Positions 13,535 to 63,943 of a DNA stretch of 64,000 nucleotides are shown one piece after another. The notes under the pieces were generated by a model. That model did not search any database. It worked only from the letters and a program-made list of their open reading frames with translations, and was not told the DNA's origin. This DNA comes from Emcibacter sp. (lineage in GTDB: Bacteria; Pseudomonadota; Alphaproteobacteria; Sphingomonadales; Emcibacteraceae). Both the position numbers and the translations under genes were made by a program. The stretch covers positions 1-64,000 of the forward strand of contig JAJFIQ010000019.1 in assembly GCA_021774785.1 (NCBI GenBank). The letters run 5' to 3'. The stretch's first letter is position 1. Each line of letters opens with the position of its first letter.

Positions 13535-13597
13535 TTTTTGGATTTTTAAATCAGGTAGGGTCCATATGGATGGATACCCCCTTAAGGAGTAAGAGAT

Positions 13598-14029
13598 ATG
13601 CGCCATCGTAGAGCTGGGCGTAAGCTGAATAAAACAAGTTCGCATCGTAAAGCGATGTTTGCCAATATGGCAAGTGCCCTTTTGAAGCATGAGCAGATTG
13701 TAACAACGCTGCCCAAAGCAAAGGAACTGCGCCCGATCGTGGAACGTCTGATCACATTGGGCAAACGCGGTTCTCTTCATGCCAGACGCCAAGCAGCCTC
13801 AAAACTGCCGGTATCTGACAAGGAAATCGTACAGAAATTGTTTGATACCTTGGCTGAACGCTATAAAGAACGCGCTGGGGGTTATACCCGGGTCCTGAAA
13901 GCCGGTTTCCGGCATGGTGACGCGGCCCCTGTTGCGGTTATTGAGTTGGTTGACCGTGACGAAGATGCCAAAGGTCAAGATAGCGGACCAGTACAGGTAG
14001 TCGAAACAGACGATACTGAAGCGGCCTAA
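13598..14029 (+). CDS. rplQ: 50S ribosomal protein L17
   Basis: A 143-residue protein beginning [20 protein letters not shown], with [19 protein letters not shown]. The C-terminal 25 residues form an acidic extension typical of alphaproteobacterial L17. It has a good SD (AAGGAG) upstream. It is the last gene of the supercluster, followed by a strong terminator. Confidence 0.97.
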
Positions 14030-14052
14030 GTCGCCCTAGAAAATGTATTTTC

Positions 14053-14094
14053 AAAAAGCAGCACCCTAATTCGCTTTGGGGGGCTGCTTTTTTT
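14053..14094 (+). terminator. Intrinsic terminator of the ribosomal supercluster
   Basis: The stem 14053-14062 pairs perfectly with 14083-14092, extended by an inner CCC/GGG, and ends in a T-run (14088-14094). It lies 24 nt after rplQ. Confidence 0.88.
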
Positions 14095-14107
14095 ATGCTA
14101 TTAAGTC

Positions 14108-14135
14108 TTGCGATAGGAAATGCAAATTATATAAT
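14108..14135 (+). promoter_or_regulatory. Sigma70-type promoter of fbaA
   Basis: TTGCGA (14108-14113), 16 nt, then a perfect TATAAT (14130-14135), 44 nt before the fbaA start and after the ribosomal terminator. Confidence 0.6.
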
Positions 14136-14178
14136 CACATGAACTCTTCTTTAAAATTAATAATCAAGGACTAATCAG

Positions 14179-15246
14179 ATGGCTCTCAAAGCTGGCGTCG
14201 TGAGCGGCGAAGACTATAATCAACTTGTTAATGCCTGTAAGGAAGGCGGCTATGCGCTTGCTGCTGTCAATTGTGTCGGGACAGACAGCGTAAATGCAGT
14301 CATGGAAGCTGCCGCCAATAATAAAAGTGATGTGATTATCCAGTTTTCCAACGGTGGTGCCCAGTTTTATGCCGGACAGGGTATGGAAGACAGCTTTCAG
14401 GCCAAAGTCTTGGGTGCGGTTTCAGCCGCCCAGCATGTACATCTATTAGCGGAACATTATGGTATCTGTGTTGTTCTACATACGGATCACGCCAACCGTA
14501 AGCTAGTGCCATGGGTTGATGCCCTTATTGATCATTCTGAGGCCCATTATAAGGCCACTGGGCGCCCACTTTATACGTCTCATATGCTTGATCTGTCTGA
14601 AGAGGATATCGATGATAATTTAAGTGAATGTGCAAGGGTTCTCAGCCGTATGGCGAAGATTGATATGAGTTTGGAGATCGAACTGGGCATTACCGGCGGT
14701 GAAGAAGACGGTGTTGGCCATGAAATTGATGCAGACGCAGACAATTCCCATCTCTATACCCAGCCTGAAGATGTTTTGAAAGCCTATGAGCTTCTCTCTC
14801 CAATCGGCCATTTTTCAGTGGCGGCTTCATTTGGTAATGTACATGGGGTATATAAACCTGGAAACGTTCAATTGCGTCCGGAAATTTTGCGGAATAGTCA
14901 GGCTCTGGTCTCGGAAAGTCACGATACGAAACAAAACCCACTTAATTTAGTATTTCATGGCGGCTCCGGTTCTGAAAAATCCAAGATAGCCGAAGCTCTG
15001 ACTTACGGCGTGTTTAAAATGAATATTGATACGGATACCCAATTTGCTTTCTCAGAAGCGGCGGGTAAATATATGGATGATAATGCCAAGGCCTTTAAAT
15101 ACCAGATCGACCCTGATGATGGTACGCCCTATAAAAAGCAATATGATCCCCGTAAATTACTGAGGGCTGGTGAGCAGGGCTTTATTGCCCGACTGGATGA
15201 GGCATTTTCCGATCTGGGTTGTGTCGGAAAGTCGTTGGCCGGGTAA
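14179..15246 (+). CDS. fbaA: Class II fructose-bisphosphate aldolase
   Basis: A 355-residue protein of the E. coli FbaA type. The metal and catalytic site appears as VVLHTDHANR (Asp103, His104). The other zinc His residues are in FGNVHGVYKPGNV and FHGGSGSEKSKI, and the acidic loop in GITGGEEDGVGHE. It cleaves fructose 1,6-bisphosphate to dihydroxyacetone phosphate and glyceraldehyde 3-phosphate in glycolysis and gluconeogenesis. It has its own promoter and is monocistronic; the next gene runs the other way. Confidence 0.96.
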   Translation: MALKAGVVSGEDYNQLVNACKEGGYALAAVNCVGTDSVNAVMEAAANNKSDVIIQFSNGGAQFYAGQGMEDSFQAKVLGAVSAAQHVHLLAEHYGICVVLHTDHANRKLVPWVDALIDHSEAHYKATGRPLYTSHMLDLSEEDIDDNLSECARVLSRMAKIDMSLEIELGITGGEEDGVGHEIDADADNSHLYTQPEDVLKAYELLSPIGHFSVAASFGNVHGVYKPGNVQLRPEILRNSQALVSESHDTKQNPLNLVFHGGSGSEKSKIAEALTYGVFKMNIDTDTQFAFSEAAGKYMDDNAKAFKYQIDPDDGTPYKKQYDPRKLLRAGEQGFIARLDEAFSDLGCVGKSLAG

Positions 15247-15247
15247 G

Positions 15248-16471
15248 TTAGTCATCATTCTTCCCCGTATAAAATATGGATTCGGGGAAGGTGAGGCTAA
15301 CAGTTGTTCCAACACCTACTTCGCTCTGAAGTTCTATCTTTCCATTATGCATTTTGGTAAAAGTGTTCACCAGATGAAGCCCCAGACCCACCCCCTCGTG
15401 GGTGACTTGGGGGCCTTGTCTGGATTGACCGAAGGGTTTTAACACCATTTCCAGGTCTTTTTCGGGAATGCCCAGCCCCGTATCACTTACCTGTATCACT
15501 AAATTTTTTTTAATTTTTTTAGCTGATACCGTGACACTGCCTTCCGGTGTAAATTTTATACTATTTGAGATCAGGTTCAGAATGATCTGTTTCATTCGGG
15601 TTTCATCGGCCATGATGGCCGGTATTTTCGGGTCGGTTTCGATCGTTATGGATATGCCGGCAGCCTGTACCTGTTTTCTAACCATACGGTTACAATCTTC
15701 TATCAAATGGTCAAGGTTGATTTTTATCGCATTGAATTCAATATCGCCGGTTTCCACGCGGGTAATATCCAGAATATCACTGATGACCCCCAGAAGATGT
15801 TCCCCTGCATCATGAATATCGCGGACATATCCCTCGTAGTGTTTATTACCCAAGGGGCCGAACAATTGGTCAGTCATGATTTGTGAAAACCCGATAATGC
15901 CATTAAGCGGAGTGCGCAGTTCGTGGCTCATATTGGCCAGAAAGGATGTTTTCGCCCGATTTGCATTTTCTGCTATGTTCTTTGCTATATTTAGTTCTCG
16001 CGTTCTCTCTTCTACTCTTGTTTCAAGGATCTCATATTGGTGTTGAATAAATCTTTGCGACATCTGAACATCCAGCAAATTACGTACTCGTGACAAAAGT
16101 TCACTGGCATCAAAGGGTTTGGTCACATAATCGCGTGCCCCGCTATCCAAGGCACGTTGTCTAAAGCTTTGCATATGTTGTGCAGTTAGAACAAGTATCG
16201 GTGGCGGATTATTTTTGGTTACTTCATTAAGCTGACTCATAACAGCATAACCATCAAGTTTTGGCATATCCAGATCCAGTAGAATAAGGTCACAGCTATG
16301 ATTATGATGCAGGGATAATACCTGTGTCGGATCCTGAGTACTAATAACGTTTTTATACCCTGTGGTTACGAGCATTTTTTCCAGAAGCCTGACGTTGGCC
16401 GCTTCATCATCCACAATAAGGATGCAGGCTTTTTTAGGATCAGTATTCAAATTTTTGTTATTGTCATCCAT
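15248..16471 (-). CDS. Receiver-histidine kinase (REC-HisKA-HATPase)
   Basis: A 407-residue protein from ATG 16471, with AAGGAAG as SD. A longer start would lie inside the upstream kinase gene. Order: receiver domain (about 15-135; acidic pair Asp21/Asp22, phospho-acceptor Asp66, Lys118), a short coiled coil (about 140-170), HisKA with His183 in ANMSHELRTPLNG, and HATPase with DTGLGIP and GVGLGLHL boxes. There is no membrane segment and no output domain. It ends a six-gene operon and starts 4 nt after the PAS kinase stop, so it may take phosphate from the upstream kinases. The stop is 1 nt from the convergent fbaA stop. Confidence 0.85.
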   Translation of the reverse strand: MDDNNKNLNTDPKKACILIVDDEAANVRLLEKMLVTTGYKNVISTQDPTQVLSLHHNHSCDLILLDLDMPKLDGYAVMSQLNEVTKNNPPPILVLTAQHMQSFRQRALDSGARDYVTKPFDASELLSRVRNLLDVQMSQRFIQHQYEILETRVEERTRELNIAKNIAENANRAKTSFLANMSHELRTPLNGIIGFSQIMTDQLFGPLGNKHYEGYVRDIHDAGEHLLGVISDILDITRVETGDIEFNAIKINLDHLIEDCNRMVRKQVQAAGISITIETDPKIPAIMADETRMKQIILNLISNSIKFTPEGSVTVSAKKIKKNLVIQVSDTGLGIPEKDLEMVLKPFGQSRQGPQVTHEGVGLGLHLVNTFTKMHNGKIELQSEVGVGTTVSLTFPESIFYTGKNDD

Positions 16472-50581: not shown

Positions 50582-51325
50582 TCAGGGTTGCCAGTCGGTG
50601 ATAGCAAGTTTGTACGATGGCCTTGTTCTTAGGCGTTCAGCCCAGGCTTGAATATATGGGAAGGGTGAAAAATCAAATTTTTTACGCTCTAGAAGAACAT
50701 ATTGTACTATCCACGTAATATCGGCGAGTGTGTAATTTTCACCGACCAGATAATTATGTTTTTTGAGCCGTATCTCTAACTTCTTGAAGCTGCTCTCCAG
50801 TATAGTTAGAGCTTCCTCAATCTCCTCCTGGGGAAAACCGTCGAGGCTTCTCCAATGGAATGCCACAAGTTCCTTGTCCGGTTCCATTTCCGCGTAACGA
50901 GCCATATCATCACGGTTTTTTGTGACGAGACCGGACACGCCGTAAACAAAAGTTTTAACACCCTTTACATGGATCTGTCCAGCCAGATCAAGCCAATGGC
51001 GAACTTCTGCTTGTTCAGTCATGTTTGTTGGTAGAAAAGAAGGTGTAGGGTATTTTTCTTCAAGATAATAGAGAATATCAATGGAATCCGTTATTGGCAC
51101 GCCATTATCAACCATTGCTGGTACGAGCCCGTTGGGATGAATGCGAAAATACCACTCTTGTAGATTTTCACGCTTAACCAGATTTAGGTGATGAGAGGTC
51201 CATTTGAGACCTTTCTCTTCCAGTAGCAGTCGCACCCGCATGGAACAGTTTGAGACATTGGTATGATAAAGGTGAAGACCTTTCAGTTTTAGAATTTCAG
51301 CGCTATCGGTTTCGAGAACAGGCAT
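50582..51325 (-). CDS. Glutathione S-transferase-like protein
   Basis: A 247-residue protein from ATG 51325 (AAAGGAT SD); a longer ATG at 51379 would run through the LacI-type operator and lacks a good SD. The thioredoxin-like N-terminal domain (about 10-90) has LYHTNVSNCSMRVRLLLEEKGLKW, the cis-Pro in GLVPAMVDNG and the Glu/Ser glutathione loop ITDSIDILYYLEEK. The C-terminal helical domain has LVGENYTLADITW. It may use glutathione in the neighbouring catabolic pathway, as beta-etherases or isomerases do; substrate unknown. Confidence 0.82.
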   Translation of the reverse strand: MPVLETDSAEILKLKGLHLYHTNVSNCSMRVRLLLEEKGLKWTSHHLNLVKRENLQEWYFRIHPNGLVPAMVDNGVPITDSIDILYYLEEKYPTPSFLPTNMTEQAEVRHWLDLAGQIHVKGVKTFVYGVSGLVTKNRDDMARYAEMEPDKELVAFHWRSLDGFPQEEIEEALTILESSFKKLEIRLKKHNYLVGENYTLADITWIVQYVLLERKKFDFSPFPYIQAWAERLRTRPSYKLAITDWQP

Positions 51326-51359
51326 GGTATGTATCCTTTTAATTGAACGGACTATCTGT

Positions 51360-51371
51360 GCAAACGTTTGC
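51360..51371. promoter_or_regulatory. LacI-family operator copy 1 (upstream of GST gene)
   Basis: GCAAACGTTTGC, a perfect 12-bp palindrome with the central CG typical of LacI/PurR operators, 34 bp upstream of the GST ATG. Four more copies occur at 51932, 62926, 63090 and 63344, and a LacI gene lies at 58141. Confidence 0.72.
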
Positions 51372-51429
51372 TTTGGCATTTTAGCTATAGGGCAGTTAAA
51401 GGCTATTTTCGGACCTAAGCTATAATTAA

Positions 51430-51756: not shown

Positions 51757-52007
51757 TCTATTGCTCCTGAAAGAATCAAATTCAAATTTAGATATAAAAC
51801 AAAATATATATTTTTGCAAATAATTGCACGAGTATTTAATTATTATTCTTATAAAACAGCTGGTTAGTGAGAATAATAAAAATTTTGGGAATTAATCCTT
51901 GATCGCAGAATGACAATAAGTTAACTTGTATGCAAACGCTTGCATGTAGGATTTTTTAAAGTCCGTAGCTTAAGCGGTTACTTGGAAAATTCGAGACAGG
52001 TGAGAAT
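51757..52007. promoter_or_regulatory. Promoter region of the M24/E1/E2 operon
   Basis: 251 bp between the divergent FmdB-like gene and the M24 gene. It is AT-rich and holds LacI-type operator copy 2, 64 bp before the M24 start. Confidence 0.55.
51932..51943. promoter_or_regulatory. LacI-family operator copy 2 (upstream of M24/E1/E2 operon)
   Basis: GCAAACGCTTGC, one base from the perfect palindrome; flanking T and A extend the symmetry to 14 bp. It is 64 bp before the first gene of the operon. Confidence 0.7.
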
Positions 52008-53312
52008 ATGAGTATCATTAAAACAACTGAACCTAAGGTAATTACGACGGATCATATTGATCCGGGATGGGATTGGAACCGCCCTATTTCTTCACCTGGC
52101 CGTACGGCGGTGGATTTTGAAGAACGAGTGAATTATCGTAGGCTGCATGATTATCGTACCGCGCGGTCAAAAATGGCATTGGACAAATCTGGCTTTGGTG
52201 CCATTCTGTGTTTCGATAATAATAATATTCGTTATTTGACTAGCAGTGTGATCGGAGAATGGGCGCGCGACAAAATTTGTCGCTATGCCTTGTTTACGGC
52301 ATCTGCCAAGCCTTATCTATGGGATTTTGGATCAGCTGCAGCTCATCATCGGATCTATGCGCCCTGGTTGGAACAGGACCGTTGCCGTGCCGGGATGCTG
52401 GGTCTTCGGGGTTCCGTATCAGAAGAGGCTGGCCTATTTAAAAGGGCCGCCCAGGAAATAAAATTCCTGCTGGAGGAAGAGGGTATTGCTGACATGCCGC
52501 TCGGTGTGGATATTTGCGAGCCGCCAATGCTTTTTGCATTACAGGCTGAAGGTTTGGATATAAGGGATGCGCAGCAGATATTTCTGGATGCCCGCGAGAT
52601 TAAGAGTATGGACGAGATTATCCTGCTTAATACAGCGGCGGCTATGGTGGACGGTGTGTATCAAAAAATTGCAGATATGCTTAAACCCGGTGTGCGCGAA
52701 AATGAGATAGTTGCCATGGCTAACCAGTTCCTTTATGAGCAAGGATCTGATGATGTGGAAGCCATTAACGCGGTTTCCGGCGAACGTTGCAGCCCCCATC
52801 CGCATAACTTCACAGATCGAATGTATCGACCGGGAGACCAGGCTTTTTTCGATGTTATTCAGTCTTATATGGGGTATCGCACCTGTTATTATCGTACCCT
52901 TAATGTTGGGCTCGCTACACAGGCACAGCATGACGCTTATCGGCAGGCGCGAGAATGGATTGACGATGCTATTCAATTGGTGCGTCCTGGTATGACAACA
53001 GACAAAATTGCTATGGTCTGGCCCAAAGCAGAAGACTTTGGTTTTGCTAATGAGATGGAAGCCTTTGGTCTTCAGTTTGGTCATGGTCTAGGATTGGCAC
53101 TGCATGAGCGGCCTATTATCAGTCGTTTGGTGTCTTTGGACAATCCGTTCGAACTTAAAGAGGGTATGGTCTTCGCACTTGAAACATATTGCCCGGCGGC
53201 GGATGGCAATGGGGCAGCACGTATTGAGGAAGAAGTTGTCGTAACCGCTGATGGCTGCCGTATACTTACTCACTTCCCAGCGCAGGAATTATTCATTGCG
53301 AATAAATACTGA
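52008..53312 (+). CDS. M24-fold hydrolase (creatinase/prolidase/DddP-like)
   Basis: A 434-residue protein with an N-terminal creatinase-type domain (about 45-200) and a C-terminal pita-bread domain (about 205-430). By comparison with the M24 family the metal ligand positions are Asp282, Cys293, His359 (GHGLG), Glu392 and Glu407. The second Asp is replaced by Cys, so it may bind metal differently or, like creatinase, work without it. The overall size and layout also recall the DMSP lyase DddP. It opens the operon and is controlled by LacI-type operator 2. Substrate unknown. Confidence 0.75.
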   Translation: MSIIKTTEPKVITTDHIDPGWDWNRPISSPGRTAVDFEERVNYRRLHDYRTARSKMALDKSGFGAILCFDNNNIRYLTSSVIGEWARDKICRYALFTASAKPYLWDFGSAAAHHRIYAPWLEQDRCRAGMLGLRGSVSEEAGLFKRAAQEIKFLLEEEGIADMPLGVDICEPPMLFALQAEGLDIRDAQQIFLDAREIKSMDEIILLNTAAAMVDGVYQKIADMLKPGVRENEIVAMANQFLYEQGSDDVEAINAVSGERCSPHPHNFTDRMYRPGDQAFFDVIQSYMGYRTCYYRTLNVGLATQAQHDAYRQAREWIDDAIQLVRPGMTTDKIAMVWPKAEDFGFANEMEAFGLQFGHGLGLALHERPIISRLVSLDNPFELKEGMVFALETYCPAADGNGAARIEEEVVVTADGCRILTHFPAQELFIANKY

Positions 53313-53337: not shown

Positions 53338-54327
53338 ATGTCAGAAAATATGGGTAATAAGGTGAGCCTGGAATTATACAGGACACAATTACTGGCGCGC
53401 TATTTTGAGCAGCGTGCTTCAGATCTTTTTCTTGAAAACCTTGTGAAGGGAACAAACCATTTAGCGCTAGGTCAAGAGGCTGTCGCCGCAGGATTTGGTG
53501 TGGCGATGAATAAGAGTGATTATACTTATTGTACCTATCGTGGTCATACGCATACTCTTGTGCGTGGTGCGCCAGTTGCCCCTATGTTAGGGGAGCTTAT
53601 GGGGCGAGAATGCGGAATATTGGGTGGCAAGGGCGGCTCAATGCATCTGACCAGTGTAGAGCATGGTGCCATGGGGTCCTATGCCATCATTGGTGCTCAA
53701 CTCTGCATCGCCCTTGGATCAGCATGGTCAGCACAATATCTTGGTACGGATCAAGTGACCACTGTGTTCTTTGGTGATGGTACGACCAATATTGGCACAT
53801 TCCATGAGGCGCTCAATATGGCGGCTGTTTGGAAATTGCCTGTAGTATTTGTCTGTGAGAATAATCTTTATATGGAATATACCCCCATTGGCAAAGTTAC
53901 CGCCGTTGAGCATCCTGGTGCCGACCGGGCTTCTGCTTATGGTCTTGACTCCATTATTGTTGATGGCAACGATGCGGATGCGGTATATCATGCCGCCCAA
54001 GACGCCTATGCCAGAGCACGCGCCGGTGATGGGCCCTCTCTTATCGAATGTAAAACTTACCGTCATCAGGGACATTCTCGGGCTGACCCGGGAAAATATC
54101 GTCCGAAAGAGGAAGTGGAAGCATGGTTCGCCCGCGACCCGATTTCCATGTATCGCCTGCGGATGATGGAAAATGGTTTTACAGATGAGGATCTGACTGA
54201 AATGGAAACTGAAATACAAAATACCATTGATGAGGCAACAGAGGTGGCTAAGCTATCACCTGTGCCGTCACTGGATATTATTGATAAAGATGTTTGGGCA
54301 GATGGAGGTTCAGCATGGCGCAACTAA
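53338..54327 (+). CDS. 2-oxoacid (acetoin-type) dehydrogenase E1 alpha subunit
   Basis: A 329-residue protein with the TPP motif GDGTTNIGTFHEALNMAAVWKLPVVFVCENN (Gly-Asp-Gly 146-148 to Asn-Asn 175-176), and ILGGKGGSMHL. The phosphorylation-loop-like YRHQGHSRADPGKYR follows. It decarboxylates a 2-oxoacid or acetoin together with the beta subunit. It overlaps the E1 beta start by 13 nt. No E3 gene is in the operon, so a housekeeping dihydrolipoamide dehydrogenase must serve. Substrate not readable. Confidence 0.9.
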   Translation: MSENMGNKVSLELYRTQLLARYFEQRASDLFLENLVKGTNHLALGQEAVAAGFGVAMNKSDYTYCTYRGHTHTLVRGAPVAPMLGELMGRECGILGGKGGSMHLTSVEHGAMGSYAIIGAQLCIALGSAWSAQYLGTDQVTTVFFGDGTTNIGTFHEALNMAAVWKLPVVFVCENNLYMEYTPIGKVTAVEHPGADRASAYGLDSIIVDGNDADAVYHAAQDAYARARAGDGPSLIECKTYRHQGHSRADPGKYRPKEEVEAWFARDPISMYRLRMMENGFTDEDLTEMETEIQNTIDEATEVAKLSPVPSLDIIDKDVWADGGSAWRN

Positions 54328-55289
54328 CATACAGAGAAGCTGTTGCTGAGGGTATAGCGCAGGAAATGAGGCGGGATAACAATGTGGTTTTCCTGGGCGA
54401 GGATATTGCTGCTGCTGGCGGTGTGTTTAAGGCCACAGTCGGGTTGTTTGAAGAATTTGGTGAAAAGCGTGTAATTGATACGCCTATTTCTGAGAATGCT
54501 ATACTTGGGGCGGCAATGGGTGCGGCTATGACGGGACTGAAACCCATCGCGGAAATCATGTTTTCAGACTTTCTTGCCGTATGTTGGGATATGGTGGTTA
54601 ATGAGATTGCCAAGGCGCGATATATGACCAATGGTCAGGTAAAAGTACCGCTGGTGATACGCACAGCTAACGGGGGTGGTTCTCGTTTTGGGGCCCAGCA
54701 TTCCCAAAGCGTGGAAAATTGGGCCATGGCCGTGCCGGGTATTAAGGTGGTGGCACCGTCTAACCCTTCAGATGTAAAAGGACTTCTTGCTGCTGCAATT
54801 CGTGACCCCGATCCGGTTCTGTTTTTCGAGCATAAATCGCTTTATGCCATGAAGGGGGAGGTGCCGAACGGTGAGCATGTGCTTGAATTGGGAAAGGCCA
54901 GTGTTCTTCGTCAGGGGGATGATGCCACCATTGTTGCCCTTGCTGCCATGGTGCCCCGCGCGGTTAAGGCTGCAGAAATTCTGGCGACAAAGGGAATCGA
55001 AGTGACGGTGGTCGATGTGCGTTCTCTGGTTCCATTGGATACGCAAACAATACTTGCCGAGACAGTCAAGACTGGGCGCCTGTTTACGGTTGAGGAAAAT
55101 CCGAGACTTTGTGGTTGGGGTTCTGAAATTTCTTCTATTGTTACTGAAGAATGTTTCTATGATCTGGATGCGCCAGTGATCCGGATTACCACACCGCATG
55201 TGCCTCTTCCTTCGTCAGATAATTTGGAAGACGCTACAATTCCAACTGTTGAGCGCATTGTTGAAACCATTTTAAAGAATATGGGCTAA
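54315..55289 (+). CDS. 2-oxoacid (acetoin-type) dehydrogenase E1 beta subunit
   Basis: A 324-residue protein from ATG 54315 with a GGAGGT SD; an earlier start at 54294 adds 7 foreign residues. It has VVFLGEDIAAAGGVFKAT, GAAMGAAMTGLKPIAEIMFSDF, and TANGGGSRFGAQHSQ, all E1-beta signatures. The C-terminal half ends with TPHVPLPSSDNLEDATIPT. It forms the alpha2beta2 E1. Confidence 0.92.
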   Translation: MAQLTYREAVAEGIAQEMRRDNNVVFLGEDIAAAGGVFKATVGLFEEFGEKRVIDTPISENAILGAAMGAAMTGLKPIAEIMFSDFLAVCWDMVVNEIAKARYMTNGQVKVPLVIRTANGGGSRFGAQHSQSVENWAMAVPGIKVVAPSNPSDVKGLLAAAIRDPDPVLFFEHKSLYAMKGEVPNGEHVLELGKASVLRQGDDATIVALAAMVPRAVKAAEILATKGIEVTVVDVRSLVPLDTQTILAETVKTGRLFTVEENPRLCGWGSEISSIVTEECFYDLDAPVIRITTPHVPLPSSDNLEDATIPTVERIVETILKNMG

Positions 55290-55293
55290 GGGT

Positions 55294-56742
55294 ATGCAGG
55301 ATATTATTTCTAAGACACCGACACAACTTTATATAGGTGGTCAGTGGAAACCAGCTAGTGATGGCGCGCAATTTACAGTGTATGATCCGGCTACGGAAAC
55401 AGCCCTCGTCGATGTGTCCAACGCAACGGTTGACGACTGTTTGTCTGCGGTCGATGCAGCGGAAGCGGCGGGTAAAATCTGGTCTGCCACGTCTCCCCGG
55501 AATCGTGGGGAAATATTGCGTAAAGCCTTTGAGCTTATGGTGGAACGTAAGGATTATTTTGCAAAATTGATTTCGCTGGAGGAAGGCAAGACTTATGCCG
55601 AAGCGATTGGTGAAATGGCTTATGCGTCCGAGTTTTACCGTTGGTATGCAGAAGAGGCCCCCCGTAATCTGGGGCAATTTTCTAGGTCCCCTGCGGGCAA
55701 TAACAATATCATGGTTTCCCATAAACCGGTGGGTGTATGTCTTCTTATTACACCGTGGAATTTTCCGGCAGCAATGGCGACCCGTAAAATTGGACCGGCA
55801 TTGGCCGCTGGTTGCACCGTTATACTGAAGCCTGCATCAGAAACGCCACTGACAGCCTTGGCCCTGGCGGCCCTTATGGAAGAGGCTGGTGTTCCAGCGG
55901 GAGTGGTAAATGTGGTGCCGTCCCGTAATTCAGGTAAGGTGGTTTCCGCCATGCTCGACGATGACCGGGTTCGAAAAATATCTTTTACCGGATCTACAGA
56001 AGTTGGCCGTATCCTGTTGTCGCAGGCCGCGCAGAAAATCATTAGCAGTTCTATGGAACTGGGCGGCAATGCGCCGCTGGTGGTCCTTGAGGATGCGGAC
56101 TTGGATGTGGCCGTAGAAGGTGCTCTTGTGGCAAAAATGCGTAATGCTGGGGAATCTTGTATTGGCGCAAATCGCATGTATGTGCATTCTTCTCTTTATG
56201 AAGAGTTTTCACGTCAACTTTCAGAAAAAATGTCGGTACTTAAGGTGGGGCCCGGACTTGAAGAAGATGTGGATGTGGGTCCTCTTGTTAATGCAGATAC
56301 CCGGGACAAGGTGATGGAACTCGTGAATGGTGCCGTTGATGCGGGTGCTAGAATCCTTACTGGCGGGAAACCTTTACAACGGCCTGGCTTCTTTTTTGAG
56401 CCTACCGTATTGGTTGATGTGGCACCGGACAGTGATATTTTGCATGAAGAAATTTTTGGCCCAGTAGCGCCGATAGTATCCTTTGAAACGGATGAGCAGG
56501 TGATAGCGTTGGCTAATGATACGGATTTTGGCCTTGCGGCATATGTCTTTGGCAAAAATGTAGGTAGGGCCCTTGCCGTTGCGCAGAAGATTGAAGCCGG
56601 TGTGATGGGGGTTAATCGTGGTTTTATCTCAGACCCGGCGGCCCCGTTCGGTGGCATGAAGCAGAGCGGTATAGGACGAGAAGGTGCGCATGAAGGCCTT
56701 CTAGAATTCGTAGAAACACAATATATTGCAGTTGAATGGTGA
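55294..56742 (+). CDS. NAD(P)-dependent aldehyde dehydrogenase (succinate-semialdehyde type)
   Basis: A 482-residue protein with Asn156 in TPWNFPAA, Glu255 in MELGGNAPLVV, and the catalytic Cys289 in NAGESCIGANRMYVH. The ANRMYV form after Cys is typical of succinate-semialdehyde/glutarate-semialdehyde dehydrogenases (GabD). It oxidises an aldehyde to the acid. It starts 4 nt after E1 beta, within the operon. Confidence 0.9.
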   Translation: MQDIISKTPTQLYIGGQWKPASDGAQFTVYDPATETALVDVSNATVDDCLSAVDAAEAAGKIWSATSPRNRGEILRKAFELMVERKDYFAKLISLEEGKTYAEAIGEMAYASEFYRWYAEEAPRNLGQFSRSPAGNNNIMVSHKPVGVCLLITPWNFPAAMATRKIGPALAAGCTVILKPASETPLTALALAALMEEAGVPAGVVNVVPSRNSGKVVSAMLDDDRVRKISFTGSTEVGRILLSQAAQKIISSSMELGGNAPLVVLEDADLDVAVEGALVAKMRNAGESCIGANRMYVHSSLYEEFSRQLSEKMSVLKVGPGLEEDVDVGPLVNADTRDKVMELVNGAVDAGARILTGGKPLQRPGFFFEPTVLVDVAPDSDILHEEIFGPVAPIVSFETDEQVIALANDTDFGLAAYVFGKNVGRALAVAQKIEAGVMGVNRGFISDPAAPFGGMKQSGIGREGAHEGLLEFVETQYIAVEW

Positions 56743-56777: not shown

Positions 56778-57986
56778 ATGGATATTATAATGCCCCAGTT
56801 GGGCGAAACCGTTGAAGAGGGCACGATTGCAGCCTGGTTCAAAAAAGTTGGTGATAAAGTCAGTAAGGGTGACTTGCTCTTTGAAGTGGAGACCGACAAG
56901 GTAACGACTGAAATTCCATCACCGAAGGACGGGGTAATATCTTCAATACTTGTGGATGAAGACGGGACGGTTCCAGTAGGGACAACACTTGCTGTCTTGC
57001 TTGTGGAAGGTGAGGAAGAATCTGTTGCAAGTGCAGCAGAAAATGAGGAGCTACCTTCTGCAAAGGCAGAAACAATGGCGGTCACTGAAACCGAGAAAAG
57101 ATCACTGATGGCACCACGGGCTGGCAATGGGCAGGTCAAACAATCTCCAGCAGTTCGTAAATTACTGTCAGACAATAATCTGGATGCCAGTCAAATCGCG
57201 GGCAGTGGTGACAATGGACGCCTCACTCGTAAAGATGTGGAAAAATTCATTAAAACACAGGCCCAAGGAACGGCGGATGACGTCACGGTAATTCCATTTA
57301 ATCGTATGAGGTTAAAGACTGCCGAACGCATGGTTCTGGCAAAGAATACGGCACCCCATGTCTTTCAGGGAGTTGAGATAAATTTTGGTAATGTGGATAA
57401 AATTCGCATGGCCAGAAGAGCTGACTGGAAAGCCCAGCATGGTTATTCCCTGACATATCTGCCCTTCATCGCCAGAGCGACCTGTATGGCTCTTAAGGAA
57501 TATACCCAGTTGAATGCTCATTTGGTTGATAATCAGATTTTGGTGCATAATAAGATTAATCTTGGAATTGCCGTGGATATTGAATTTGAGGGATTGATGG
57601 TTCCAGTTCTTAAAAATGCAGACAAGAATTCCGTAGCTGAAATGGCCCAGAATATTCATGACCTCGCGGCGCGGGCAAGGACAAAATCTTTGAAGCCGGA
57701 TGAATTGACAGAAGCAACTTATACGATCTCCAACTCGGGTTCTTTTGGAACGTTGTTCACGGCACCGATCATCAATCTGCCGCAGGTGGCCATTATGTCT
57801 ACTGATGGGGTGCAAAAAAAGCCAGTTGTGATGGAAATGGAACAGGGTGACTGTATCGTCATTCAGCCAGTTGGTGTGATTGCTCAATCCTTTGATCATC
57901 GCGCCGTAGATGGTGCATATTCAGCGGCATTTTTGAAGTTGGTAAAAAGGATCATCGAGGAACATGACTGGTCACAGGAAATTTAG
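56778..57986 (+). CDS. Dihydrolipoamide acyltransferase (E2)
   Basis: A 402-residue protein with one N-terminal lipoyl domain (1-77; lipoyl Lys41 in VETDKVTTEIPSP), an Ala/Glu-rich linker, a peripheral subunit-binding domain (about 118-155: AVRKLLSDNNLDASQIAGSGDNGRLTRKDV). The catalytic domain has SNSGSFGTLFTAPIINLPQVAI-like and SFDHRAVDGA (HxxxDG). It carries the acyl group from E1 to CoA. Last gene of the operon. Core of a dedicated dehydrogenase complex. Confidence 0.93.
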   Translation: MDIIMPQLGETVEEGTIAAWFKKVGDKVSKGDLLFEVETDKVTTEIPSPKDGVISSILVDEDGTVPVGTTLAVLLVEGEEESVASAAENEELPSAKAETMAVTETEKRSLMAPRAGNGQVKQSPAVRKLLSDNNLDASQIAGSGDNGRLTRKDVEKFIKTQAQGTADDVTVIPFNRMRLKTAERMVLAKNTAPHVFQGVEINFGNVDKIRMARRADWKAQHGYSLTYLPFIARATCMALKEYTQLNAHLVDNQILVHNKINLGIAVDIEFEGLMVPVLKNADKNSVAEMAQNIHDLAARARTKSLKPDELTEATYTISNSGSFGTLFTAPIINLPQVAIMSTDGVQKKPVVMEMEQGDCIVIQPVGVIAQSFDHRAVDGAYSAAFLKLVKRIIEEHDWSQEI

Positions 57987-58140
57987 TTGAAATATGGGTT
58001 TATTAACATCTTAATTGCTTTTAAAATTATATTTTGTATGTTGTGTTTTGCAGTAGATGTTGTGTAAATTAAAGTGGAGTTTGAATTAAAATAATTGTGT
58101 ATAGCCATTTATAAAATGGATCACTTAAAAAGTGGAAAAT

Positions 58141-59157
58141 ATGGTAGATAAGCGAATAACTATCAGGGATATAGCAAGAGCTATCGGGGTAAATCCGTCG
58201 ACGGTCTCGCGAGCGTTAAATCCGGCCACAAAACATCTGATTACTAACGAAGTTATTGATAAAATTTCTAAAACTGCTGATGAGATGGGATATTTTCCTA
58301 ATCGTATGGCTGCTGCTCTGGTTCAGAAACGCTCTCATATCATTGGCATGCTTGTGCCGGATGTGACCAATCCTTTATTTCCTCCGATTATACGGGGCTT
58401 GGAAGATTCACTGGAAAAAGAAGGTTATACGCTGATTACAGTTAACAGTGATAATATGGAGGAATTTGAAAAGACAGCTTTTCGTCGTTTGCGGGAGCTG
58501 GCGGTTGACGGATGTGTGATGGCTTCAGCCCTGCGTAAGGATGAGGTGGTAGATGATTGCCTTAGACTGGATATTCCGTTGGTACTGGTTAACCGTACTA
58601 CTGATCGCCATGATGTGAATGCGGTGGTCAATGATGATGAAGTTGGTGTGGAATTTTCCCTTGATCACTTGATTGATCTGGGGCATAGCAAAATTGCTCA
58701 TATTACGGGGCCTTTGAATACTTCAACTGGTTATTTGCGTCAGAGAAAATTCAAATCATATATGAAGGAAAAAAAACTAGCCAATAATATGGTTGAAATA
58801 GCTAGTAGTTTTACTGAAAAGGCTGGTTATGATGCGATGAATAAACTCTTTGCCAAGTACAAAGAATTTACGGCTGTACTGGCGGGTAACGACTTGCTCG
58901 CCTTAGGTTGTCTTGACGCGATGAAAGAGGCGGGACTGAGTTGCCCTGAAGATATTTCCATCATCGGCTATAATGATATACCTTTAATGGACCGGATCAA
59001 GCCTGCTTTAACGACAGTTTCAATCTCACAATATAGAATAGGGCAACGGGCAGCTGAAATACTTCTCAATCAAATTAACGGCAAAGACTATGAAATTGTT
59101 ATGACCCGTTTGAAACCAAAGCTTGTTGTGAGAGATTCTACCCGAAAATTGGATTAG
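58141..59157 (+). CDS. LacI-family transcriptional regulator
   Basis: A 338-residue protein from ATG 58141 (an in-frame GTG at 58132 is possible). The HTH (residues about 5-27: TIRDIARAIGVNPSTVSRALNP) and hinge helix are followed by a periplasmic-binding-like effector domain (IIGMLVPDVTNPLFPPIIRGLE, ISIIGYNDIPLMDRIKPALTTV). It lies among the genes that carry GCAAACGTTTGC operators, so it is the most likely repressor. No operator was seen upstream of itself. Effector unknown. Confidence 0.93.
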   Translation: MVDKRITIRDIARAIGVNPSTVSRALNPATKHLITNEVIDKISKTADEMGYFPNRMAAALVQKRSHIIGMLVPDVTNPLFPPIIRGLEDSLEKEGYTLITVNSDNMEEFEKTAFRRLRELAVDGCVMASALRKDEVVDDCLRLDIPLVLVNRTTDRHDVNAVVNDDEVGVEFSLDHLIDLGHSKIAHITGPLNTSTGYLRQRKFKSYMKEKKLANNMVEIASSFTEKAGYDAMNKLFAKYKEFTAVLAGNDLLALGCLDAMKEAGLSCPEDISIIGYNDIPLMDRIKPALTTVSISQYRIGQRAAEILLNQINGKDYEIVMTRLKPKLVVRDSTRKLD

Positions 59158-59245: not shown

Positions 59246-60277
59246 ATGAAGAAGCGTGTGAAACGCCGGTCGGTAATTGCAGGTTCATTAAGTTTAACTG
59301 CTTTGAGTGGGTTATCATTGGGTGGCGGCATATCTTTCGCTTCCGGGACAGGGGTGGTACCACTTACCCCAGTACGGGTCTTCAGTTTTCCAGGAAATCT
59401 AAATCTGTTGATTTGGGTCGGGCAGGAAAAAAATATCTTTCGCAAAGAGGGGCTGGATGTGAGCCATGACCTGACGCCGACATCAATGGTTTTGATCGAA
59501 AAAATGGTGATGGGTGAATATGATATTGCCCTGTCTAGTATAGATAATGTCATTGCTTATAATTCAGGGCAGGGGCAAGCAACTTTATCACGCCCCTCTG
59601 ATCTTTTTAGTTTTATGAATATTTCACAGAATATGGAGTTGCCGTTGATAGTGCGCGGCGATATTGCCGATTTTGATGCTTTGCGCGGTGGGAAATTAGC
59701 CGTGGATGCCGTATCTACTGGTTTCTCTTTGGTTCTGCGCAAAATACTGGAAGTTCATGGGATTATGCCGGGTGAGTATCAGCTGGTGTCTGTGGGGAAT
59801 TCCGCCAAACGGTATAAGGCTATGCTATCGGGTGAATATGATGGTGCTATATTAACGCCACCCTTTAACCAGAGGGCGAAGTCAAAAGGCCTCAAACAGC
59901 TTGGAAGAAATCGGGATTTCGATCCTAATTATCAAGGTCCTTGTTTTGTTGCCACTCAAAGGTTCGCCGCATCAAACCCGAATATAATTTCTGCTTTTTC
60001 CCGGGCACAATTATCTGTTTATAATTGGCTCAGAGATGAAGATAATAATCAGGAGGCCGCTGAAATTCTGGCCAAATATAACAAGGGCGTTGATGTAAAT
60101 TCGGCACGAGCTATGGTTCGCGGCCTTGCGCGGGGGTTGTCGCCTGATTTTAATATAGCGGGTATTAAAACGGTAATCAACTTGCGCGCCCAATATGCGA
60201 AACTGGATAAAGAGTTGGTGCGGGTCAGTGATTTTATCGATGTAAGATACTTAGAAGATGCCAGAGGTTCTTTATAA
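59246..60277 (+). CDS. Tat-exported ABC-type substrate-binding protein (NMT1/TauA type)
   Basis: A 343-residue protein with a twin-arginine-like signal (RRSVIAGSLSL, about 9-20, Ala-rich end near 30). The mature part has VRVFSFPGNLNLLIWVGQEKNIFRKEGLDV, MVMGEYDIALSSIDNVIAY, and GEYDGAILTPPFNQRA, the sulfonate/NMT1-like two-lobe fold. Excellent SD (AGGAGGAG). No permease or ATPase is adjacent, so either those are elsewhere or it binds a ligand for another purpose. It ends at a bidirectional terminator. Confidence 0.82.
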   Translation: MKKRVKRRSVIAGSLSLTALSGLSLGGGISFASGTGVVPLTPVRVFSFPGNLNLLIWVGQEKNIFRKEGLDVSHDLTPTSMVLIEKMVMGEYDIALSSIDNVIAYNSGQGQATLSRPSDLFSFMNISQNMELPLIVRGDIADFDALRGGKLAVDAVSTGFSLVLRKILEVHGIMPGEYQLVSVGNSAKRYKAMLSGEYDGAILTPPFNQRAKSKGLKQLGRNRDFDPNYQGPCFVATQRFAASNPNIISAFSRAQLSVYNWLRDEDNNQEAAEILAKYNKGVDVNSARAMVRGLARGLSPDFNIAGIKTVINLRAQYAKLDKELVRVSDFIDVRYLEDARGSL

Positions 60278-60316: not shown

Positions 60317-60351
60317 AATAAGGGCAGCATATTTGTTATGCTGCCCTTATT
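60317..60351. terminator. Bidirectional terminator
   Basis: A perfect 15-bp stem (60317-60331 / 60337-60351), 5-nt loop, rich in A at one base and T at the other, between two convergent genes. It can end both the binding-protein gene and the TonB receptor gene. Confidence 0.92.
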
Positions 60352-60368: not shown

Positions 60369-62738
60369 TTAAAAGCGTGCGCTGAACTCAACTCCGAAGG
60401 AGCGCGGTGGAGCAAAAGCTACCGGACGCTGCAGGTTGTTTGGCTGTGGTGGGCCAATGCCAATGATATCAGCTTCCTGTGTCAGGTTTTTACCCCAAAC
60501 AGATGCTGTCCAAGCGTCACTTTCCGGTGTGAAAGAGATACGCGCACCAAATTTATTCACGCTGGGCCGGCGACGTTCCTCAACTTCGCCAAGGTCATCA
60601 AAAACATCACTGCGGCCACGCCAGTCACCACGCAGGGTGAGGAGGTTGCCATTGCCAACTTCAATATCATATTCTGCAATGGCTGTTCCTGTCCATGTGG
60701 GTGCGTTGTCGGTACGCGTTCCGCCAAGGTCGGTAAGTTCACCGGGGCCTGTCTGAATAAGGGTACCATCCTTGAATACTGAATCGATCACGGCTAGGCT
60801 ACCACTCAGGCGGAAGTTATCGGTGATATGTAAAACACCCTCAACCTCTATACCATATACATTGGCCCCCTTGGCATTTCGGACAATCTGAGAGAAAGAT
60901 TCGCCAACTTCGAAGAATTGAAGAATCTGCATGTCAACATATGAAATATAGAAAGCAGACGCATTCAAACGTAACCGCTCACCCAGATCACCTTTGAACC
61001 CAAGTTCATAATTGGTAGAGGTTTCTTTATCATAAGGGATTGTTTGGTCTTCCACGAGGAAAGGTTCGTTTTGGAAACCACCGGTTTTATAACCGGATGA
61101 AACCAGGGCATAGAGCAGCATGTCATCATCAGTCTTATACTCCAAGGAAGCCTTATAGCTTACGTGGCTCCAGCTATCGCTTGTTGAAACGGGATCGACC
61201 AAGCCGATAGGGTTGCCTTCAGAGCCGCAGTTAAACATACCTGCGGGTGGGAAAAAGGTGCAGTCAGCAAAGCCTTCAAGGATAGCAGCGCGGCCAAAAC
61301 CGAAATGCTGTGAGGTATAATCCTTATTGTCTTTGCTCCAGCGTATGCCACCCCGAGCGGTTAGGTTTTCGGTCAAGTCATAGGATAATTCACCAAATAT
61401 ACCGAGTGATTCCGTATCGCCAACATTAACGCGTGTGTCAAAAGTTGGTGCGCGATTCAGACCATATGCGGCCTCCCCAACAAAGAGCTGGTTTTCATCA
61501 AAACGATCCTGATGGTCCTGCATGTAATAAAGGCCGAATAACCATTTTATTCTATCAGCAGACGCGTGATTATCTAGACGTATTTCCTCACTGAAAATCC
61601 AAGCGTCATTCTTGTTGGCTTGGAATAAAACATTACGCGGGGTTCCGTTACCTTCTATGAGATATTCATTGTCACCATCTATGTAGCTGGTCACGGAAGT
61701 CATGGCAACATCGTCATTGATGTTATACACGACCTCTGCGCTCGCATTGATCATATCACGTTTAATAAAGAAATCCCCATCGGAAATTTCTGTTTTCCAG
61801 AAATCACAAGAATCGGTAAAAGTGAAAGGATTTCCATTGTCGTCAACCCACCGTGGATGACCAGGGCCAAGCGCTTGTGCTGCAGGGCTTGATCCAGTTC
61901 CATCAAGGGTTGGTTGGGTGCAATCGGCAGAACGGCGGATAGATGTTTCGTCATCATCCTTGTTATATTCAACTTTCAGATAAACCTGAAGATTGTCAGA
62001 GGGGTTGAAAAGCAAGGAGCCGCGAATAGCGAAATTCTTTTCTCCGCCCAAGCGCTCACCCGTAGACAGCCTTTCCATATAACCGTCTGTATAATCATAA
62101 TTTACAGCCAGGCGTCCCGCGACTTTATCACTTAGAGGACCACTTATATAACCGTCAACGCCAACACTGTTAAAGGTATCAGCGCTCGCGGTGAAACCAG
62201 CCTCAAATACATCAGTTGGTCTTTTCGTAATGACATGGATAAGACCGGCAGAAGCATTACGACCAAATGACGTCCCTTGTGGGCCGCGTAATACCTCCAC
62301 GCGTTCAATATCGAACATAGCGGGGTTTTTCAGAAAATCTTTGGTAATTACCACGTTGTCGACAACGGATTGTACTGATGAATCACCGGAAGACCCTTCG
62401 CTCTGGGAGTTAATTCCCCGCATGCTGTATTCGGCCTGCATTTTGTTGAATCGAACAAAGGCACCACCTGGGGAGAAATCAACAACATCATTCACCGTAT
62501 TAATCCCCTGATTACGAAGGTAATCACTGGTCATGGCATTTACAGAAGTAGCGACATCCTGAAGGCTCTCTTCATAACGGCGAGATGTTACAATAATTTC
62601 ATCAAATACATCTACTTTATCTACCTCATCTGCTTCTGCCTTGACGGGAGCAGAGGCGCCCGCCATGGCGATCATGCCAGTGGTCAGCGCAGTCGCACCT
62701 CTCAATAACGTTTGTTTAATTCGTCTTGCATTCTTCAT
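60369..62738 (-). CDS. TonB-dependent outer-membrane receptor
   Basis: A 789-residue protein with an N-terminal signal peptide (about 1-34, SAPVKA cleavage). A TonB box-like DEIIVTSRR (about 46-54), a plug (NDVVDFSPGGAFVRFNKMQAEYSMRGI, VEVLRGPQGTSFGRNASAGLIHVITKRP) and a 22-strand-type barrel ending in RSFGVEFSARF (terminal Phe) follow. It takes up a large or scarce substrate across the outer membrane with TonB energy. The plug phrases are those of the sphingomonad-like catabolic receptors rather than siderophore receptors. LacI-type operators lie upstream. Confidence 0.94.
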   Translation of the reverse strand: MKNARRIKQTLLRGATALTTGMIAMAGASAPVKAEADEVDKVDVFDEIIVTSRRYEESLQDVATSVNAMTSDYLRNQGINTVNDVVDFSPGGAFVRFNKMQAEYSMRGINSQSEGSSGDSSVQSVVDNVVITKDFLKNPAMFDIERVEVLRGPQGTSFGRNASAGLIHVITKRPTDVFEAGFTASADTFNSVGVDGYISGPLSDKVAGRLAVNYDYTDGYMERLSTGERLGGEKNFAIRGSLLFNPSDNLQVYLKVEYNKDDDETSIRRSADCTQPTLDGTGSSPAAQALGPGHPRWVDDNGNPFTFTDSCDFWKTEISDGDFFIKRDMINASAEVVYNINDDVAMTSVTSYIDGDNEYLIEGNGTPRNVLFQANKNDAWIFSEEIRLDNHASADRIKWLFGLYYMQDHQDRFDENQLFVGEAAYGLNRAPTFDTRVNVGDTESLGIFGELSYDLTENLTARGGIRWSKDNKDYTSQHFGFGRAAILEGFADCTFFPPAGMFNCGSEGNPIGLVDPVSTSDSWSHVSYKASLEYKTDDDMLLYALVSSGYKTGGFQNEPFLVEDQTIPYDKETSTNYELGFKGDLGERLRLNASAFYISYVDMQILQFFEVGESFSQIVRNAKGANVYGIEVEGVLHITDNFRLSGSLAVIDSVFKDGTLIQTGPGELTDLGGTRTDNAPTWTGTAIAEYDIEVGNGNLLTLRGDWRGRSDVFDDLGEVEERRRPSVNKFGARISFTPESDAWTASVWGKNLTQEADIIGIGPPQPNNLQRPVAFAPPRSFGVEFSARF

Positions 62739-62925
62739 GCCTATAGTTACCTTCCTGTTGTGTTTTTATCAGTTCTGTTCTTAAGTTGTTTAAATAATCA
62801 AGAACAATTTCGATTTATAGGGTTTTATGATTAAGCAGACCCAATAGATTAATCTGTAGTAGCTTGTATTTGCTTCTCAATCCCTAGATATAATCGTATG
62901 TTTCTTTCCTTTATGCGTTTCATAT

Positions 62926-62937
62926 GCAAACGTATGC
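62926..62937. promoter_or_regulatory. LacI-family operator copy 3
   Basis: GCAAACGTATGC, one mismatch in the palindrome, with ATG/CAT flanks widening the symmetry to 16 bp. It is 188 bp upstream of the TonB receptor start. Confidence 0.62.
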
Positions 62938-63089
62938 ATTTGTATTATTAATTAAGCGTCATCATGTCTTTGTTGGTCAAGTTATCTGGTTTAACTTAGG
63001 TTTAGCTATATTTTGATTTTATTTATGCGCTAATTTGACTGATTAATGTTTCACTCATTCGCGCTATTATATTGTAGTATGTTTGTCGT

Positions 63090-63101
63090 GCAAACGTTTG
63101 C
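63090..63101. promoter_or_regulatory. LacI-family operator copy 4
   Basis: GCAAACGTTTGC, perfect palindrome, in the middle of the divergent region. Confidence 0.72.
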
Positions 63102-63334
63102 CAAGATTGTAGCCTTATTTTTACCTTTGCTCAAGTCGAATTCATCTATAGGCAGTATATTTCTTATAACATATTGATATATAATGGTTAAATATTTAAT
63201 TTAGAGGGTGTTATCATCCGTATTAACGTATTTCTTAACAAGAAATGTTAAATATATTGACAGAAAAGGGGTGTTATTCACAAACAATACAGTTGCTCGT
63301 TGCTTGTAAATGAGAAACCATATCAATTACCATA

Positions 63335-63363
63335 TTGACAAACGCAAACGTTTGCAGAATACT
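63335..63363 (+). promoter_or_regulatory. Promoter of molybdenum hydroxylase genes with LacI-family operator copy 5
   Basis: TTGACA (63335-63340) and AATACT (63358-63363) are 17 nt apart. The perfect operator GCAAACGTTTGC (63344-63355) fills the spacer. Binding there would block RNA polymerase, as expected for a repressor. Confidence 0.68.
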
Positions 63364-63460: not shown

Positions 63461-63943
63461 ATGATGGCTAAGTCCACAATAAATTTTATTGTTAACGGTA
63501 GTAAGTGTGAGTGTGACCTTCCGTCGGGCACGCCATTGCTTTACTACCTGCGAAATGATTTGGAACTGAATGGCCCTAAATTTGGTTGCGGACTCGGACA
63601 ATGTGGAGCCTGTACAATATTGGTGAACGGTGTGGCTACACGATCATGCATTACTTTGGTTGAGGATGTCAGTGATGCTGAAGTTATAACGCTGGATGGT
63701 CTTGGGAGTCGTGAAGACCCTCACCCTTTGCAAAGTGCTTTTATAGATCAGCAGGCTGCCCAGTGTGGTTATTGCATGAATGGTATGATTATGACAGCGG
63801 TTGGTTTTCTTGCTAAAAATAGCACCCCAACTGAGGGTGAGATCAAGGAAGCGGTATCGGCGAACCTGTGTCGATGCGGGACACACCAAAGAATCATTGC
63901 CGCCATCAAACAAGGTGCAAAGGGTATGGCAAATGAAAGCTGA
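63461..63943 (+). CDS. [2Fe-2S] subunit of a molybdenum hydroxylase (IorA/xanthine-dehydrogenase family)
   Basis: A 160-residue protein (a second ATG 3 nt later is possible) with two Fe-S modules. The plant-type ferredoxin cluster appears in GCGLGQCGACTILVNG (about 43-58) and the helical cluster in CGYCMNGMIM and CRCGTH (about 102-142). Such subunits serve aldehyde oxidoreductases and N-heterocycle hydroxylases, passing electrons from the molybdopterin subunit. Its stop overlaps the next start by 11 nt. Confidence 0.92.
   Translation: MMAKSTINFIVNGSKCECDLPSGTPLLYYLRNDLELNGPKFGCGLGQCGACTILVNGVATRSCITLVEDVSDAEVITLDGLGSREDPHPLQSAFIDQQAAQCGYCMNGMIMTAVGFLAKNSTPTEGEIKEAVSANLCRCGTHQRIIAAIKQGAKGMANES

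Follow-up and report, generated by a model that had tools for sequence, protein, structure and literature searches.

Gene organization at the locus

The window, the whole 64,000-nucleotide stretch of DNA that was analyzed, carries on its plus strand a gene (52008..53312; an ORF with an ATG start, backed by profile search, phmmer, and an alignment of relatives) for a 434-amino-acid M24 protein that we refer to as Cys-M24. It is followed head to tail on the same strand, with gaps of less than 40 bases, by genes for the E1 alpha subunit of a TPP-dependent dehydrogenase of the pyruvate/acetoin type (53338..54327; PF00676, with PDH E1 alpha closest in the PDB), the E1 beta subunit (54294..55289 as the ORF is listed, with the ATG at 54315 as a possible true start; PF02779/PF02780), an aldehyde dehydrogenase of the succinate-semialdehyde dehydrogenase (SSADH) type (55294..56742; TIGR01780, with an SSADH as the closest PDB sequence), and an E2 dihydrolipoyl acyltransferase in which profile search found lipoyl, E3-binding, and catalytic domains (56778..57986). 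The aldehyde dehydrogenase scores 565 bits against TIGR01780, under the cut-off of 646, and the E1 and E2 proteins are also under equivalog cut-offs, with E1 beta passing the subfamily model NF006667. A LacI-family regulator (58132..59157, plus strand; PF00356/PF13377) starts 145 bases past the E2 gene, and an NMT1/THI5-like solute-binding protein (59246..60277, plus strand; PF13379/PF09084) is encoded next.

On the minus strand, this group is flanked by genes for a glutathione S-transferase (GST) family protein (50582..51379; from profile search, with the true start probably inside the ORF) and a TonB-dependent outer membrane receptor (60369..62738; PF00593/PF07715). The [2Fe-2S] subunit of a molybdopterin hydroxylase follows on the plus strand (63461..63943), and beyond the window end lie genes for the large subunit of that enzyme, an OsmC protein, a TSR/HIBADH-like dehydrogenase, and an MFS transporter. 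Between the NMT1 and TonB receptor genes, a 15-pair inverted repeat (60317-60351) has tails that fit a terminator on both strands. The Cys-M24 gene lies amid genes that look like those of small-molecule catabolism.

A cysteine at the position of a metal ligand

Dinuclear metallopeptidases of the M24 family, such as prolidase and aminopeptidase P, hold their metals with five ligands: Asp, Asp, His, Glu, and Glu. Cys-M24 belongs to the M24 fold family by its match to PF00557 (Peptidase_M24; 125.6 bits over residues 207-414, where the cut-off is 23), but it has four of these five ligands. Reading the plus strand, Asp282, the first ligand Asp (GAT, 52851..52853), His359 (CAT, 53082..53084), Glu392 (GAA, 53181..53183), and Glu407 (GAG, 53226..53228) are kept, and Cys293 (TGT, 52884..52886) replaces the second, bridging Asp. 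The initial annotation had put Cys293 at this position by eye, and phmmer alignments, in which it stands opposite the second ligand Asp both of DddP (Asp307) and of prolidases, bear this out; its numbering of the four kept ligands was also right. The same annotation recognized that another Asp might occupy the metal position instead, and a search of the sequence found none: residues 283-297 contain no Asp or Glu. In the predicted model (mean pLDDT 69), residues 290-300 form a single strand.

Conservation of the cysteine among relatives

Cysteine occupies the 293 column in all 13 proteins that are 46 to 100% identical to the query, the query included; the 12 relatives (46 to 81% identity) come from Thiotrichales, SAR324, other Gammaproteobacteria, Rhodospirillaceae, and Clostridiales/Bacillota. 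A wider alignment was assembled from ORFs of at least 150 amino acids in 127 loci matched by phmmer with the query (E of 1e-3), where 118 matches gave 89 distinct rows and the query replaced its own copy. In this alignment, column 293 holds Cys in 40 rows (the query among them), Asp in 41, Pro in 6, Ser in 1, and Ala in 1, counts that do not represent a random sample, since rows and loci were chosen by likeness to the query. The Cys rows span Proteobacteria, SAR324, Clostridia, actinobacteria, and one haloarchaeon, whose protein was checked for the Cys; 63 plasmid records also matched, of which six were examined. Cys is present in every row whose identity to the query is about 35% or higher, and Asp in the DddP-like rows at 28 to 30%. 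Replacement of the second, bridging Asp by Cys is a property of a broad family, not a quirk of one gene.

The substitution is embedded in a wider pattern. D282, H359, E392, and E407 are constant in all 40 Cys rows, and Y294, Y295, A390, and T393 are found in every Cys row and are absent from all 41 Asp rows. K89 is nearly as diagnostic (39/40 Cys rows, 0/41 Asp rows), as is R373 (40/40 versus 2/41), and the Cys rows share the signature GY[RK][ST]CYYRT, which the query carries together with the four retained ligands. Other positions vary within the group. At the column of His366, a catalytic His in M24 peptidases, five rows have Tyr, and six rows from Bacillota and two from actinobacteria have Trp; the histidine of the PxH position, His266, is present in 35 of the 40 Cys rows and absent in five. 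Because neither histidine is constant, the chemistry may vary within the Cys group.

In a tree computed without columns 291-297 (a quick search, rooted at the midpoint and containing several long branches), the Cys rows group together with 21 Asp rows of the DddP-like type and a single Ser row (SH-aLRT support of 98). The Cys label requires one or two changes on this tree, two as drawn, with a single origin possible; the swap is therefore old and probably arose once or twice. The Ser row is an M24 protein from the window's own genus (locus L127, G390:C54:12909-13529; 93.7 bits to PF00557) in which Glu also replaces Asp282; it is long-branched, and its site is another that is remodelled or degenerate. 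A further M24 protein of this genus (L126, G395:C1:2540691-2541326) has lost its ligands in the manner of ectoine hydrolase-like proteins. Within the Cys type, a group of three loci at 36% identity (L045-L047) has PNWRNF in place of PHPHNF, and all three share an ADH and four gene clusters (26, 28, 31, and 35) but no E1 genes; it is a second branch, probably with a different substrate.

Sequence and structural matches

The best PDB sequence match of Cys-M24 is the lyase DddP (phmmer E of 1.1e-21), which supports the initial choice of DddP as the relevant relative. An AlphaFold model (13 sequences behind it, mean pLDDT 69, pTM 0.71, with residues 257-267 and 357-366 below 50) likewise retrieved DddP first (Z 30.0, rmsd 3.1, 380 residues aligned), with prolidase 5cde (Z 29.7, rmsd 3.4, 365 aligned), ectoine hydrolase (Z 28.6), and creatinase (Z 27.7 to 28.3) close behind. 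The comparison that the initial annotation had proposed between a model and creatinase, prolidase, and DddP thus recovers the M24 fold, but Z scores of 27.7 to 30.0 separate none of these enzymes from the others: the predicted fold is M24, and function is not told by fold.

Could Cys-M24 be a distant DddP member that cleaves DMSP? DddP is closest in both solved sequence and fold, and the match to the DddP equivalog model NF043017 spans most of the protein's length. Against this, the score is 112.4 bits where the cut-off is 600, and soil actinobacteria and Bacillota are among the hosts of relatives. The RdDddP report (PMC4108388) gives Asp295, Asp297, Asp307, His371, Glu406, and Glu421 as metal ligands and Asp377 and Tyr366 as the authors' candidate catalytic bases. 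Compared with the residues named there, Cys-M24 has a gap at Asp297 (the residue two after D282 is Ile284), Cys293 at Asp307, and the other four ligands in place, and His366 and Phe353 align with Asp377 and Tyr366, so that the candidate catalytic pair is missing. A DMSP lyase is accordingly a very improbable identity for this protein.

A metal-free hydrolase of C-N bonds, comparable to creatinase and ectoine hydrolase and using Cys293 as acid/base or nucleophile, would account for the nearly equal Z scores of those enzymes on the same predicted fold, and an active-site Cys can act as a nucleophile. The aligned residues point elsewhere. Six ectoine hydrolase-like rows, presumably of the metal-free type related to creatinase, have E, P, Y, M/I, and S/T at the columns of D282, C293, H359, E392, and E407; they have lost all of the ligands, whereas Cys-M24 rows kept four. 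Loss of the metal is expected to free ligands from constraint, and the 40/40 retention of D282, H359, E392, and E407 therefore counts against a metal-free hydrolase, which we regard as unlikely. The score against the ectoine hydrolase (DoeA) equivalog model TIGR02993, 58.2 bits with a cut-off of 613, also places Cys-M24 outside that group. For the same reason, the parallel that the initial annotation drew with creatinase, in which the metal was lost entirely, is not apt, because the Cys-M24 family retains four of five ligands and the ectoine hydrolase-like rows do not. Other points of its altered-site reading are supported: the site is changed where it said, the change belongs to a broad family, and DddP is the nearest solved relative by sequence. 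Its further suggestion, a new chemistry on the fold, is a proposal.

Partner genes near relatives

Within 12 kb of the 40 Cys-type M24 loci, a count that includes short contigs and uses cluster names from a few family searches or record annotation, genes for E1 alpha were found at 24, E1 beta at 23, ALDH at 19, E2 at 18, SDR at 15, TSR/HIBADH at 14, and a sugar-type ABC importer at 13 (CUT2 and PurR-type operator serve here as conventional labels). When proteins of the window genome served as queries, with the window itself excluded and a threshold of at least 150 bits (over 80 for GST and OsmC), matches were found at 23 (E1 beta), 22 (E1 alpha), 18 (ALDH), 7 (TSR), 6 (E2), and 5 (LacI) of 39 Cys-type loci. 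The TSR and E2 counts are lower in this second survey because the window was omitted and matches of at least 150 bits were scored. The same queries at seven Asp-type M24 loci gave 0/7 for E1 beta, E1 alpha, and TSR and 1/7 for ALDH. Genes at the outer part of the island rarely accompany relatives, with GST and MFS at 0/39 loci, OsmC at 1/39, and the molybdo-hydroxylase large subunit at 2/39.

Gene order varies on this theme. The Tritonibacter and Phaeobacter plasmids encode SDR, M24, E1 alpha, E1 beta, a lipoyl protein, ALDH, and E2 all on the same strand, joined by E3 in Phaeobacter, and both have a divergent importer. The M24 gene of Haloferax mediterranei adjoins E1 alpha and E1 beta genes on the opposite strand. 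A Streptomyces locus (L052) combines M24 with a TSR-like enzyme, ALDH, E2, a LacI gene, and a single gene adjoining Cys-M24 in which E1 alpha and E1 beta are fused (13380-15602). The Paenarthrobacter stretch examined has a TSR-like enzyme and no E1, and that of Rhodococcus has neither. The TPP complex need not be a neighbor: an E1 alpha cluster is missing around 16 of the 40 loci (L052, with its fused E1, is among these, and some contigs are too short to tell), and L007 has no E1 beta; in L007 (3264-7115), ALDH directly follows E1 alpha, with no E1 beta detected in the locus. Genes for E1, aldehyde dehydrogenase, and beta-hydroxyacid dehydrogenase thus recur near relatives in several phyla, but not near all.

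Thirteen loci of relatives (L035, L036, L037, L041-L044, L050, L051, and L116-L119) share a 560- to 700-residue protein with a solute-binding-protein domain and an additional N-terminal stretch (cluster 7). In the two copies that were scanned against Pfam, this stretch of about 200 residues has no match. The protein may be a regulator that senses through its binding-protein domain.

These neighborhoods bear on the proposal that Cys-M24 is an ordinary M24B Xaa-Pro peptidase in which Cys stands in for Asp as a ligand, its surroundings reflecting the use of proline-containing or amide substrates. Such a peptidase would fit the four ligands kept in 40/40 rows, His266 at the PxH position in 35/40, a match of the model to prolidase about equal to that with DddP (Z 29.7 versus 30.0), and the annotation of relatives in public plasmid records as members of the Xaa-Pro peptidase family. 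Yet a lyase and not a peptidase is the best sequence match, His366 varies within the Cys group, and the loci of relatives hold sugar-type importers, dehydrogenases, and regulators. We consider an ordinary peptidase improbable, somewhat more so than the metal-free hydrolase.

Clustered LacI-type operator-like sites

A palindrome without mismatch, ATGCAAACGCTTGCAT (51930..51945), ends 62 bases ahead of the M24 start and fits the LacI/PurR operator type. Its 13-mer core, TGCAAACGNTTGC, occurs exactly four times in the 3.5-Mb genome, and all four copies fall within 12 kb around the M24 operon (C11:51359-63356): at the start of the GST gene (site 51358..51373), before the M24 operon, and twice between the TonB receptor and molybdo-hydroxylase genes (63088..63103 and 63342..63357, the latter upstream of the molybdo-hydroxylase genes). 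Palindromic copies with one mismatch lie at 62924..62939 and, ahead of the OsmC-TSR-MFS genes, at 66245. Allowing one mismatch across the whole genome gave 29 rows, with palindromes counted twice, versus 4 for a reversed control pattern; 12 of the 29 are in the M24 island and 17 elsewhere. A looser 16-mer search of the window with three mismatches showed mild enrichment (11 sites versus 5.7 expected, with 2 of 100 shuffles reaching 11).

The core is also present at L003, L007 (twice), L008, and L116, all of which have a relative of the LacI gene, and it was found at none of seven loci without one (L004, L005, L006, L033, L034, L038, and L040); it is absent from L052, although that locus has a LacI relative. 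The LacI protein is the putative binder of the operator-like sites, and the GST protein, with a site at its gene start, and the TonB receptor, with sites at 62924 and 63088, are possible members of the regulon. In L007 and L008, as in the window (63461-63943), a molybdopterin hydroxylase near the M24 operon is preceded by an operator-like site, and the large subunits of the window genome and of these two loci are about 25% identical. Elsewhere in the same genome, two more palindromes, TGCAATCGATTGC, lie about 7.5 kb apart (G000:C21:173397 and 180848), possibly marking a second LacI regulon.

Distribution across genomes

In the window's class, Cys-M24 was found in 16 of 385 genomes, 14 at 61 to 100% identity (own genome included) and two with the 36% type alone. 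A looser limit at the level of the phylum gave 20 of 398 genomes, six of them at 61% identity or more with the own genome again counted. Within the window's family, its own genome is alone among 32 in holding the gene, and proteins that are 77 to 81% identical are present in other lineages, which fits horizontal transfer.

Candidate substrates

Several substrates suggested by neighboring genes or related enzymes were set aside. Genes resembling iol lie beside the operon in three 1.4-Mb genomes; however, two of these have IolD elsewhere, and IolD, above cut-off in 8 of 17 genomes, is not in the window's own genome, so that the M24 protein is no stand-in for IolD and myo-inositol is not the general substrate. 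On the equivalog scores given above (112.4 versus 600 bits and 58.2 versus 613 bits, respectively), DMSP and ectoine were rejected as well. Pantothenate, carnitine, pyridine-type N-heterocycles, and acetoin derivatives are candidates suggested by the enzyme set, none of which is singled out. A search of titles and the beginnings of abstracts in the open literature returned nothing relevant beyond general papers and the DddP structure.

Discussion

Cys-M24 is a genuine variant of a known fold; it is conserved, its genetic context is good, and as judged from aligned residues, its metal site is altered but conserved, unlike that of the ectoine hydrolase-like proteins. The best reading of the sequences is of an uncharacterized M24 subfamily in which the four remaining ligands appear to be under strict selection. 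Because every Cys row preserves four of the five ligands, we infer that the site was remodelled rather than lost, with Cys as a ligand, and the protein is probably still a metalloenzyme. A thiolate would give a softer site, where Zn or Fe would be likelier than Mn. It is probably not a peptidase.

Taken together, these observations lead us to favor, with some confidence, a model in which a non-peptidase metalloenzyme with a fixed Cys ligand catalyzes one committed step of a catabolic pathway under LacI control. For the reaction itself, a DddP-like elimination is our tentative preference, ahead of hydrolysis of a C-N bond, which is a possible but less favored alternative; a peptidase or some other activity would make up the remainder. 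In the order of steps that we infer, a small anionic molecule would be taken up and oxidized by the SDR or by the TSR/HIBADH-type beta-hydroxyacid dehydrogenase, perhaps joined in the window genome by the molybdo-hydroxylase. The metal of Cys-M24 would then polarize a carboxylate or carbonyl group to allow elimination at a carbon-heteroatom bond or hydrolysis. The TPP/lipoate E1-E2 complex of the pyruvate/acetoin type would cleave the oxo product to yield an acyl-CoA, and an aldehyde would pass to the semialdehyde-type dehydrogenase.

A more specific proposal, which we hold more tentatively than the lyase reaction alone, is that Cys-M24 represents an unrecognized enzyme class, a thiolate-ligated metal lyase, bridged dinuclear or mononuclear, that opens a horizontally spread pathway and delivers its product to a dedicated TPP/lipoate complex. 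Hosts of such a pathway would include marine and soil bacteria, Clostridia, and at least one haloarchaeon, and both the metal center and the pathway would be new. The dinuclear M24 fold has already been turned into a lyase, in DddP, and into metal-free hydrolases, in creatinase and ectoine hydrolase. Exchange of a carboxylate ligand for a thiolate, fixed across phyla, would be a third remodelling, one that would show a route by which metal centers move toward new chemistry. A pathway of carbon catabolism carried by roseobacter plasmids, 1.4-Mb genomes of the window's class, and a haloarchaeon may also go unnoticed, because relatives are labeled Xaa-Pro peptidases in plasmid records. The clustered operator-like sites offer a direct way to seek the inducer.

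Each known system shares part of this picture. DddP (PDB 4rzy, 4s01, and 4b28) is the closest, as a non-peptidase M24 enzyme with the same fold over the whole length and the best sequence match, and DddP-like rows are the Asp rows nearest the Cys rows in the tree; Cys-M24 differs by having no counterpart of Asp297, Cys at Asp307, and His366/Phe353 at Asp377/Tyr366. Prolidases and Xaa-Pro dipeptidases of M24B (PDB 1pv9 and 5cde) share the fold, four of five ligands, and His266 at PxH, whereas Cys-M24 has Cys at the second Asp followed by Y-Y (40/40 Cys rows, 0/41 Asp rows), Thr393 after Glu392, which never occurs in Asp rows, and a carbon-catabolism neighborhood. Ectoine hydrolase DoeA/EutD (PDB 6twj) and creatinase (PDB 1chm and 1kp0), M24 proteins that were taken into small-molecule catabolism, share the fold, but DoeA-like rows are without the ligands, of which Cys-M24 retains four of five. 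As for the rest of the operon, E1 alpha, E1 beta, and E2 belong to the same superfamily as E1-E2 systems of the acetoin and pyruvate dehydrogenase type, from which the operon differs in that its E1-E2 genes are accompanied by an M24 enzyme and an SSADH-type dehydrogenase.
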